Origin: an uncultured Nostocoides sp.
GTDB lineage: Bacteria; Actinomycetota; Actinomycetes; Actinomycetales; Dermatophilaceae
Assembly (NCBI GenBank): GCA_937873315.1
Contig: CALMQX010000015.1
Coordinates: 1-64,000, forward strand
DNA: 64,000 bases
Reading direction: 5' to 3'
Part shown: in pieces, positions 29,959 through 37,660 of the stretch
How positions within the stretch are numbered: position 1 is the stretch's first letter
Layout of the letters: every line of letters starts with the position of its first letter
Made by a program: the position numbers and the translations under genes
Notes under the pieces: model-generated
Told to the model about the DNA's origin: nothing
The model's input: only the letters and a program-made list of their open reading frames with translations
Database searches by the model: none

Positions 29959-29978
29959 GGGGGCCAGCCGCCTCCCCC

Positions 29979-30039
29979 GCGCCTCAACTTTCCCGCGCCT
30001 CCTCCGCGCCTCAACTTTCCCGCGCCTCAACTTTCCCGC
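29979..30039 (+). repeat. Three near-tandem copies of GCGCCTCAACTTTCCCGC
   Basis: Exact 18-bp copies at 29979-29996, 30006-30023 and 30022-30039 (the last two share two bases). The same motif in slightly changed form stands next to the other two palindromic elements (36338 on the plus strand; 37635-37655 as its reverse complement), so it belongs to the repeat family. Confidence 0.9.
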
Positions 30040-30043
30040 CTGA

Positions 30044-30101
30044 TGCCGGAACCTTGAGGTTGGGGCCTCTTACAAGGGACCCCAACCTCAAGGTTCCGGC
30101 A
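30044..30101 (+). repeat. Palindromic repeat element, copy 1
   Basis: Perfect 22-bp arms (30044-30065 and 30080-30101; left arm begins TGCCGGAACCTTGAGG) around a 14-base centre that can pair further (CTT-AC-AAG core). Copies 2 and 3 share the sequence, except that CCTTGAGG/CCTCAAGG is CCTTGTGG/CCACAAGG there, a paired change that keeps the stem. It lies between the convergent ends of prpE and the HerA-like gene, so it could also end both transcripts. To its right, GTTTGGCGGGCGGGAGTTC and GTTTCGCGGGCGGGACGTTC form another degenerate tandem pair. Confidence 0.92.
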
Positions 30102-35416: not shown

Positions 35417-36331
35417 ATGAAGGCCGTCGTCCGCCGACGCGGCCCCAGGCTGCACCGAGAGTTGGCGAAGTACATCGTTCCCGGTGAGCGAGTGCTCCTC
35501 TCCGTGCGGCGGCACTGGTTCTCGCTCGCCCACGAGATTGCCTATGTGGCCATCGCCCTCTTCTTCGCGATCACCATCGACATCGCGGCACCCGCAAACG
35601 GGCGGCTGCTCTCCGATCTCGCTTGGTTCGCCTTCTGGGGCTCCTCGGCATGGCTGCTGTGGAACTACCTCAACTGGCGCAATGACTACTTCGTGGCGAC
35701 CGACAAGCGCTTCTTGCTCTTCTACGGATTCATCCGCCGCAAGGTCGCGATGATGCCGCTGGTCAAGGTCACCGACTTGACCTTCGATCGGCCGCTGATC
35801 GGGCGGATGCTCGGCTACGGCCACTTCGTCCTTGAATCCGCCGGCCAGGAGCAGGCGCTCGCACACATCGGCATGATCCCGGATGCCGATCACAACTACC
35901 GCCTGATCTGCAGCGAGCTCTTCGGTCGCTCGGGCGATGTCGACGTCGATGACATCGACTGGCGCGACGGTGGCGGCCCGCCCAGCGCCGGGCCCAACAG
36001 TGGCGGCCCCAACAGTGGCGGTGGATCTGGGCCAAGGCGCCCCGGGTCCCCCGACTCACCCGAGGCACCCGAATCGCCCTGGGAACCTGCGCAACCCCTT
36101 CGCGCGGCGCCTCGGTACGACGCCCGGCATGGGCATGGTGAGCTGGACGACGGGACGGGCATGCGGCATACCTCTGTGGACGAAGGCGCGACCATGCGGC
36201 AAACCGCGGCGGGCGAGGACAGCCTCGACGAGGCGAGCGATCCCTCCTGGTACCGCAGCGACCAGCGGCTCAGGCGACCGCTCACGCCGGACACCGGCGA
36301 GGTGCTCTACGTGCCGCGCGAATGGTCCTAA
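35417..36331 (+). CDS. Bacterial PH-domain membrane protein
   Basis: 304-residue protein. Two membrane helices (SLAHEIAYVAIALFFAITI and LLSDLAWFAFWGSSAWLLWN) precede a bacterial PH (YdbS-like) domain, WRNDYFVATDKRFLLFYGFI then RRKVAMMPLVKVTDLTFDR. The last ~140 residues are disordered, rich in Gly, Pro, Ser and Asp, with tandem GPNSGG units. Start follows the small membrane protein by 2 bp. Localised at the cytoplasmic membrane; function not established for the family. A palindromic element lies right behind its stop. Confidence 0.83.
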   Translation: MKAVVRRRGPRLHRELAKYIVPGERVLLSVRRHWFSLAHEIAYVAIALFFAITIDIAAPANGRLLSDLAWFAFWGSSAWLLWNYLNWRNDYFVATDKRFLLFYGFIRRKVAMMPLVKVTDLTFDRPLIGRMLGYGHFVLESAGQEQALAHIGMIPDADHNYRLICSELFGRSGDVDVDDIDWRDGGGPPSAGPNSGGPNSGGGSGPRRPGSPDSPEAPESPWEPAQPLRAAPRYDARHGHGELDDGTGMRHTSVDEGATMRQTAAGEDSLDEASDPSWYRSDQRLRRPLTPDTGEVLYVPREWS

Positions 36332-36337
36332 CTCACC

Positions 36338-36409
36338 TCAACTTTCCCGCCGGATGCCGGAACCTTGTGGTTGGGGCCCCTTGTAAGGGACCCCAACCAC
36401 AAGGTTCCG
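36338..36409 (+). repeat. Palindromic repeat element, copy 2, with flank motif
   Basis: Flank CTCAACTTTCCCGCC and GATGCC precede arms at 36358-36376 and 36391-36409 (CGGAACCTTGTGGTTGGGG and its exact reverse complement, 19 bp). The 14-base centre pairs on after one C-A mismatch (CCCTT-GT-AAGGG), giving a hairpin of about 24 pairs. Same orientation as copy 1. It begins 7 bp after the PH-gene stop, so it may also serve as a terminator there, but no T tract follows. Confidence 0.92.
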
Positions 36410-36445
36410 ACCCCCAGTTCAGGGGGCCTGGCTCATTACCGGCGG

Positions 36446-36473
36446 GTATCCACAAGGGGCCTCGTTATCCACA
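36446..36473 (+). promoter_or_regulatory. Two DnaA-box-like sequences upstream of the AbiEi/DUF559 gene
   Basis: GTATCCACA (36446-36454) and TTATCCACA (36465-36473) stand in direct repeat 10 bp apart. The second is a perfect E. coli-type DnaA box. Only two boxes and no AT-rich unwinding region are seen, so this is not a replication origin. The pair could be regulatory for the gene that begins at 36525, or chance. Confidence 0.4.
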
Positions 36474-36524
36474 GCCCAGCCCCCGCCCGCGCGCCGACAG
36501 CACGGGGCACCGCAACCTAGGGAA

Positions 36525-37439
36525 ATGGACTCACTCGACCCGAGCCTGCTCAGCCTCGCCGCCACACAGCATTCCATGATCACGACCTCGCAAGCGGCCA
36601 GCTTCGGGCTCGGACCGGCGGCCCTGGTTCACCTCGTCCGAAGCGGCGCCTTGGAGCACCCAGCGCGGGGGCTGTATGCCGTGGCCTCCATGCGCGCGGC
36701 AACCGCCGAGGTGCGCCACCGGCAGCTGTCCGCCGGTGCGCTGATGCTGTATCCCGATGGTGCGCTCTCGGGAGTGAGCGCGGTGCTTGCTCACGGCCTC
36801 CCGGTATGGGGCGTGGATCTGCGCACTCCATATGTTCGGCGGCCGGTTGATCGCCATCGGGGCGCGGTGGGTATTCACATCCTCGGCGGGCTGGACGAAG
36901 TCGAGACCGCCGATGCGCAACGATGCGAGCCCCTGGACTTGGCGCTCGTGGAGTTGGCCATGACCTGGGGCGTCGTTCCTGGGGTCGTGAGCGCGGATGC
37001 CGCCCTCCAGCGCGGCCTGGTGACGCGGGATGCGTTGGCCGAGAGGTTGCGCCGGGTCGCACAATGGCCCCGCTCGAGCCGGGCGCGCGCCATGGTCGCT
37101 CTGTCCGATGGCCGCTCGGAGTCGGTCGGCGAGTCGCGCTGTCGGATCATGTTGCAGGCCAACGGCATACCGCTGGTTCCGCAGGTCACGATGATGGATC
37201 GGCGCACGGGAAAGGTCATTCGCGCTGACTTCGTCGTCGAAGGGACCAAGGTGATCATCGAGTTCGATGGGCGGATGAAGTATGCCGATGGCGATGCAAC
37301 GACATTGTGGGACGAGAAGCGCCGCGAGGACTGGTTGCGCGCTCAGGGCTATGTCGTGGTTCGCCTGACGTGGGCCGATCTGGAGCACCCCGAGCGCGCG
37401 GTGGCAAAGGTCCGGCGCGCGATGGCGAGCGCGGCGTAA
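36525..37439 (+). CDS. AbiEi-like antitoxin domain fused to DUF559 nuclease-like domain
   Basis: 304-residue protein. The N terminus (LSLAATQHSMITTSQAASFG, LGPAALVHLVRSGALEHPAR, then GLYAV) is an AbiEi/AbiGi-type winged helix. The C-terminal ~100 residues carry IRADFVVEGTKVIIEFDGRM and EKRREDWLRAQGYVVVRLTW, the DUF559 (Vsr-like PD-(D/E)XK) core. Such fusions are abundant in actinobacteria and are labelled type IV antitoxins, but no nucleotidyltransferase toxin is adjacent, so a toxin-antitoxin pair is not shown. The gene sits between two inverted copies of the palindromic element. Confidence 0.8.
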   Translation: MDSLDPSLLSLAATQHSMITTSQAASFGLGPAALVHLVRSGALEHPARGLYAVASMRAATAEVRHRQLSAGALMLYPDGALSGVSAVLAHGLPVWGVDLRTPYVRRPVDRHRGAVGIHILGGLDEVETADAQRCEPLDLALVELAMTWGVVPGVVSADAALQRGLVTRDALAERLRRVAQWPRSSRARAMVALSDGRSESVGESRCRIMLQANGIPLVPQVTMMDRRTGKVIRADFVVEGTKVIIEFDGRMKYADGDATTLWDEKRREDWLRAQGYVVVRLTWADLEHPERAVAKVRRAMASAA

Positions 37440-37441
37440 GC

Positions 37442-37570
37442 GTGCGCGATTGCGCCGGATGCGCCCTGTGCGCCGTATGCGCCGTATGCGCCGTGTGCGC
37501 CGTGTGCGCCGTGTGCGCCCGATTGCGCCCTGTGCGCCGTATGCGCTGTATGCGCCGATCGCGCCGTACT
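37442..37570 (+). repeat. Tandem array of nonamer TGCGCCGTR
   Basis: About 14 units of nine bases directly behind the AbiEi/DUF559 stop. The central units (37469-37517) are nearly perfect alternations of TGCGCCGTA and TGCGCCGTG; the outer ones are degenerate (TGCGCCGGA, TGCGCTGTA, TGCGCCGAT). It ends 7 bp before the third palindrome. The nine-base period keeps reading frames open on both strands, but no start or ribosome site suggests it is translated. Confidence 0.9.
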
Positions 37571-37576
37571 TGGGGT

Positions 37577-37660
37577 CGGAACCTTGTGGTTGGGGCCCCT
37601 TACAAGGGGCCCCAACCACAAGGTTCCGGCATCAGGCGGGAAACGTGAGGCGCGTGGGAG
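37577..37660 (-). repeat. Palindromic repeat element, copy 3, with flank motif
   Basis: A 52-bp perfect palindrome (arms 37577-37601 and 37604-37628, 25 bp each, with AC at the centre). Arms start CGGAACCTTGTGGTTGGGG as in copy 2, and the central pairs are intact here (CCCCTT/AAGGGG). The flank motif lies on the right as GCATCAGGCGGGAAACGTG, the reverse complement of the copies 1 and 2 flank, so this copy is inverted. A second degenerate flank unit follows (CGCCGGAAACGTGCGGCGCG at about 37669). Confidence 0.93.

Follow-up and report, generated by a model that had tools for sequence, protein, structure and literature searches.

A palindrome-bracketed AbiEi–Vsr-like fusion gene with dispersed palindromes in Actinomycetota suggests a REPtron-like system

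The HUH transposase RAYT is the sole known partner enzyme of bacterial REP-type palindromes. RAYT genes are long-resident and their repeats turn over (PMC8049555), and some REP classes (CGTC) have no partner enzyme (PMC3733652). AbiEi antitoxins bind their own promoters at paired 23-bp inverted repeats (PMC7319586). The homing endonuclease I-Bth0305I has a target of ~60 bp (PMC3943268), and a DUF559 protein of Caulobacter is an active Vsr-like nuclease in cells, linked to the SOS response (PMC12907096). The window, meaning the whole 64,000-nucleotide stretch of an uncultured Nostocoides sp. analyzed here, contains a gene of an enzyme class unrelated to RAYT, currently annotated just as AbiEi antitoxin or DUF559, that bears a RAYT-like genomic signature.

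The gene lies between two 52-bp palindromes, copy 2 at 36358-36409 (left bracket, plus strand) and copy 3 at 37577-37628 (right bracket, minus strand). Their arms are 96% and 100% complementary and the two copies are 94% identical. The extended flanks at 36331-36436 and 37550-37655 (106 nt) are 86% complementary to each other, so the bracket copies are inverted, as the first-pass annotation had judged from the flank motif. Both are of the monomer form, with outer motifs pointing outward and tails pointing inward. The outer motif, of the form CTCAACTTTCCCGCC-GATGC, reads CCTCAACTTTCCCGCCGGATGC on the left (36336-36357, plus strand), and the right one (37629-37652, minus strand; reverse complement CGCCTCACGTTTCCCGCCTGATGC) matches the left one inverted. 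It is also found outside solo copies and in homologous units. Since the outer motifs point outward at both ends, the unit is most naturally drawn as 36336-37652 (~1.3 kb). On the left it starts 4 bp past the stop codon of an upstream bPH_2 gene, and its right-hand neighbor is a convergent PNTB gene. A dispersed solo copy with its outer motif, copy 1, is located 3' of an upstream gene at 30026-30098 (palindrome 30047-30098, plus strand). With an 18-nt arm and up to 3 mismatches, the window contains 6 arm matches against 0.04 expected by chance; Rfam has no match at the palindromes. Inside the unit, all on the plus strand, are two DnaA-box-like sequences, box 1 (GTATCCACA, 36446-36454) and box 2 (TTATCCACA, 36465-36473), one gene (36525-37439) and a nonamer tandem array of ~12.8 copies (37451-37566) in the interval between the gene and the right bracket. 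The first-pass annotation had proposed a composite unit of about 1.3 kb enclosing one complete nuclease-like gene, both boxes and the array. The gene matches AbiEi_4 and DUF559, the boxes have conserved counterparts upstream of homologues, and the bracketed gene recurs in relatives, with the limits redrawn as above. The array is an accompaniment; it is not a conserved part of the units in other genomes and was rejected as an essential part.

The gene product of 304 amino acids matches AbiEi_4 (E 3.7e-11) and DUF559 (E 1.2e-5) in Pfam, and PADLOC AbiEi models match its N-terminal half. In the AlphaFold2 model (pLDDT 92.5, pTM 0.88), residues 3-195 resemble 6y8q, an AbiEi antitoxin (Z 10.4, rmsd 7.0 over 179). 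For residues 196-304 the matches are the catalytic domain of I-Bth0305I (3r3p, Z 12.3), an endonuclease-like protein of neisserial origin (Z 11.8) and Vsr (1cw0, Z 10.0), and the Vsr-like nuclease fold anticipated for the DUF559 part is seen in the predicted structure. Weaker Foldseek matches, to mitoribosomal and viral endonucleases, were set aside. Across 27 homologues, nineteen residues are invariant, and the nuclease domain holds 17 of these; the set includes E199, E203, D235, E246, D248, K252, E264 and K265. The protein models as an AbiEi antitoxin (residues 1-195) fused to an I-Bth0305I/Vsr-like nuclease (196-304). With the I-Bth0305I/Vsr group (EDxHD, PD-(D/E)XK) it shares the fold of residues 196-304, in a group where the I-Bth0305I target is very long (PMC3943268), but here the domain is fused to an AbiEi module and linked to dispersed palindromes. 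In our reading of the sequence, K252 would follow the conserved ExD motif where EDxHD has His. With the AbiE type IV toxin-antitoxin system it shares the N-terminal AbiEi fold, and AbiEi proteins bind inverted repeats; the palindrome arms here are 25 bp, near the AbiEi repeat length. The locus differs from AbiE in the extra nuclease domain, the bracketing palindromes and the dispersed copies. No AbiEii nucleotidyltransferase toxin gene is adjacent, the neighbors being bPH_2 and PNTB, so the unit is not an AbiE toxin-antitoxin pair.

Of 149 genomes sampled from the bacterial family, 141 carry members of the AbiEi-DUF559 gene family, usually several, and 49 of 53 genera are represented. A contig scan with an alignment as query found 434 relatives, and one with the window protein as sole query found none. 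Judged from named homologues, the relatives of the window's genome are Dermatophilaceae/Intrasporangiaceae such as Phycicoccus, Knoellia, Janibacter and Nostocoides. Each homologue was scored by locally aligning its upstream flank to the reverse-complemented downstream one; the cut-off of 43 is the 95th percentile of mismatched flank pairs, and for named and phylum loci a score of at least 45 was used. Bracketing is above 43 in 26 of the 30 best homologues and in 17 of 21 more distant ones, including the second gene in the window's genome (C33:123737). It is at least 45 at 59 of 73 named loci, from Kribbella, Actinopolymorpha, a Streptomyces record and Dermatophilaceae, and no bracketing is detectable at the remaining 4 nearest, 4 more distant and 14 named homologues. 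The bracketed gene thus recurs across Actinomycetota; in a phylum-wide sample, 17 of 28 testable loci score at least 45, a count in which true elements are mixed with possible terminators, with dispersal confirmed in 8 of 8 tested. As a control, 175 unrelated genes from the same 20-kb stretches and the window have a median score of 26, the highest being 39. Ordinary terminators flanking every gene were rejected as the source of the brackets, because none of these 175 exceeds 39. The survey of homologues for the same flanking palindromes that the first-pass annotation had called for thus finds bracketed homologues in the majority of the family's genera and also far away in the phylum, with a negative control, and palindromes unlinked to the gene, the outcome that would have spoken against the proposal, are not what is seen.

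The upstream boxes are conserved as well. Across 30 regions upstream of homologues, TCCACA is found 57 times in the forward and 4 times in the reverse direction, where 0.064 is expected per region and strand (~30-fold over background). The boxes are typically 55-130 bp ahead of the gene start, and pairs are mostly 29-31 bp apart in homologues and 19 bp apart in the window. The extended consensus is approximately (T/C)(T/C)GTCCACAG, which resembles the actinobacterial DnaA box; DnaA or the protein itself may bind there.

In the 2.98-Mb genome whose contig C15 carries the window, BLAST and pattern searches locate ~30 distinct palindrome sites. Contigs C2 and C34 seem to overlap, so copy counts need merging and their shared sites were counted once. 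An assembly break falls inside a palindrome at the end of C14 and the start of C34. Copies occur as monomers, ending in ACCCCAAG or similar, and as closed doublets, in which the outer motif is repeated inverted on the far side; these form palindromes of up to 100 bp with a predicted energy of -106 kcal/mol. The arms covary, with 83% of positions pairing compared to 78% (maximum 81%) when the 3' halves are dealt randomly. Only 2 of the ~30 sites adjoin the gene and the remainder are dispersed solo copies, a qualification to the composite-unit proposal. Solo copies are mostly intergenic and often just past stop codons. Elements in G145 lie in convergent gaps in 10 of 17 cases, compared to 37 of 164 background gaps; this placement bias is suggestive only, because the figure is just 9 of 25 in the window's genome and gene calls are crude. 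Statistics on arrays and gene orientation depend on those calls too and carry no weight here. Short tandem arrays occur less than 200 bp from 15 of 26 palindromes in the window's genome, compared to 7% of random windows. Such arrays stand beside palindromes at 29976-30039 and 37451-37566 in the window and at loci L022, L028, L029, L054, L055 and L059; the array next to copy 1 (29976-30039) repeats the outer motif of the element itself. Two further arrangements are seen in G145. At L204 (C1:2237400-2240300), two inverted elements ~1.1 kb apart surround a quinone-oxidoreductase-like frame with no nuclease gene, possibly a passenger unit. At L202 (C1:2211200-2212900), three elements are arranged head-to-tail with a common terminal motif ACCCGATAATCCTG.

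Each genome has its own palindrome. The joined bracket palindromes of 13 genes, from 12 relatives and the second gene of the window's genome, were searched in 13 genomes. The own bracketing palindrome is dispersed in all 13, with 11-53 matches each; sites are fewer than matches because palindromes can match both strands. Among the matches listed, a single one is cross-genome, and it is within a genus. Eight further genomes, of which 7 lie beyond the family or genus covered earlier and reach other classes of Actinomycetota, have 16-80 own-palindrome matches each. The outer motifs fall into classes, TTTCCCGCC, TATCGGGT, the GGTTACC type and others. On a maximum-likelihood tree of 76 proteins, for which the class labels of L092 and L132 were corrected by eye ahead of tree building, the motif class changes 11 times; shuffled labels average 41.3 changes, and a count this low arises in 0 of 200 shuffles. 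Relatedness alone clusters labels, and the stronger point is therefore the contrast between paralogues within a genome: in G000 (the window's genome), G001, G017, G113 and G118, paralogues bear the motif class of their protein clade and not that of the genome. The window's genome has two further AbiEi/DUF559-type genes, L064 (C34:101205) and L115 (C33:123737), and L115 has its own bracketing palindrome of the TTTCGGGGT class with its own dispersed copies. The outer-motif class co-evolves with the protein clade.

Presence and absence of the unit can be compared at the convergent pair msrB-hemQ (SelR and chlorite dismutase domains). The unit (~1.25 kb) fills the gap (~1.3 kb) in G183, G186 and G188, and homologue coordinates place it there in G191, G185, G073, G075 and others. 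In G183 the outer motifs are within a few bases of both the msrB and hemQ stop codons. The unit is missing, with msrB and hemQ a few tens of bases apart, in G182 and G001 (of the genus of G183), G064, G108, G022, G113, G145 and others. The first-pass annotation had asked whether the unit is absent from strains with an otherwise identical locus, and this is the case at msrB-hemQ in many relatives; its refuting outcome, the gene standing without palindromes at the same locus in most relatives, is not seen. The AbiEi-DUF559 gene adjoins hemQ on the 3' side in many genera, mostly in one orientation, and in G081 it is in the opposite one. The site is therefore either ancestral or a hotspot. That so many genera have the unit at hemQ suggests a long-resident gene that seldom moves, with losses and with turnover of its palindromes, as for RAYTs (PMC8049555). 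Congeners of G145 lack its solo elements at the corresponding convergent gene pairs, with alignable rows and spanning matches in agreement; in the row comparison the species labels are shifted by one, and the row labelled G137 is an unrelated locus. Congeners are too divergent between genes for exact insertion junctions to be placed, and in 12 clean copies of one family target-site duplication is not above the shuffled level.

The closest likeness is to the REPtron (REP/REPIN with RAYT). In both, a chromosomal gene present in few copies lies between inverted palindromic repeats, and the same repeats are dispersed in the genome as tens of short non-autonomous monomers and inverted doublets, with fast repeat turnover around a long-resident gene (PMC3733652, PMC8049555). 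The unit is not itself a REPtron. The enzyme differs; here it is an unrelated AbiEi-Vsr/EDxHD-type fusion and not a Y1/HUH tyrosine transposase. The elements are also larger (~80-100 bp), are found across Actinomycetota, and have no GTAG tag in their outer motifs (TTTCCCGCC, TATCGGGT and GGTTACC types). Y1_Tnp (PF01797) is found in 0 of 13 genomes, in a search that detected its positive controls. With no Y1 transposase there, these 13 genomes have no RAYT, and a RAYT elsewhere in the genome was ruled out as the mobilizer. An insertion sequence with its MITEs would likewise have an inverted-ended unit and short non-autonomous copies, but here there is no known transposase fold, the ends are themselves hairpins, gene copies are few and there is no phage match. 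Carriage by phage or plasmid was rejected on zero phage matches and one weak match in a plasmid collection, and with its few copies the gene behaves as a chromosomal resident and not as an infectious insertion sequence.

The unit probably serves as master copy in a system resembling a REPtron, with the AbiEi-Vsr fusion nuclease spreading its own palindromes. The AbiEi half, a winged helix, would recognize the cognate palindrome either in duplex form or as a hairpin, extruded or on the lagging strand. Nicking or cutting, at the outer motif or close to it, would fall to the Vsr/EDxHD-like half, after which replication or repair would copy the element into a new intergenic site. The tandem DnaA-box-like sites upstream may couple gene expression to replication and so time element copying. 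We infer cleavage of the palindrome by the nuclease, and mobilization, from the genomic pattern. The first-pass annotation had conceived of a composite unit with a nuclease acting on the palindrome or mobilized with it; the survey and the msrB-hemQ absences support this reading, in which the action itself would be as outlined here. For the broader proposal, of phylum-wide palindromic mobile repeats spread by an AbiEi-Vsr endonuclease unrelated to known transposases, with clade-matched palindromes and replication-tied expression through tandem DnaA boxes, we consider the case evenly balanced.

Palindromes near gene ends are common in bacteria, and PADLOC AbiEi models match the N-terminal half of the protein, as would be expected if a stray gene for an AbiEi-like antitoxin stood by chance between terminator palindromes of a common kind. 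This ordinary explanation is very improbable, given that bracketing is found in 0 of 175 unrelated genes, that the palindrome class tracks the protein, and that bPH_2 and PNTB, not an AbiEii toxin gene, adjoin. A free-standing homing-type endonuclease gene could instead cut unit-free alleles, the palindromes being borders and the solo copies remnants of lost units. The nuclease domain is indeed closest to the homing endonuclease I-Bth0305I, and the unit is present or absent at msrB-hemQ as such a gene would be. Solo copies, however, far outnumber the genes and are at unrelated sites, the monomers and closed doublets look like elements in their own right, and congeners that lack element and gene alike suggest solo insertion at sites that never carried the gene. 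We regard homing as unlikely.

A little less unlikely, but still improbable, is a solitary regulator that binds the inverted repeats of its own locus and dispersed operators, either as a global or chromosome-organizing regulator or as a terminator-binding factor, with the nuclease as a side activity and the copies spread otherwise. AbiEi antitoxins autoregulate by binding inverted repeats in promoters (PMC7319586), the palindromes are intergenic near stop codons and would fold as strong RNA hairpins, and in the window's genome there is covariation between their arms; several features of the preferred reading would also be expected of a regulator with dispersed operators. Yet a palindrome stands at either end of the gene, each with its motif facing outward, and the pair is not confined to the promoter, where the proximal region is held by the conserved tandem boxes. 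The nuclease residues are invariant, and regulation alone leaves unexplained the near-identical copies at unrelated sites and the insertion or absence of the whole unit. Spreading of its own palindromes by the fusion nuclease is the reading we prefer.

In the papers searched, mostly in non-subscription journals and with just 14 that mention DUF559, there is no link of DUF559 or AbiEi genes to dispersed palindromic repeats, and this looks like an undescribed palindrome-spreading system with an enzyme other than that of REP/RAYT. If the protein acts on the palindromes, this would give a function to a very common gene family (49 of the 53 genera sampled). It would also be a second independent solution to palindrome copying within genomes, and its many protein-palindrome pairs, diversified by nature, could be used to read out the rules of recognition.
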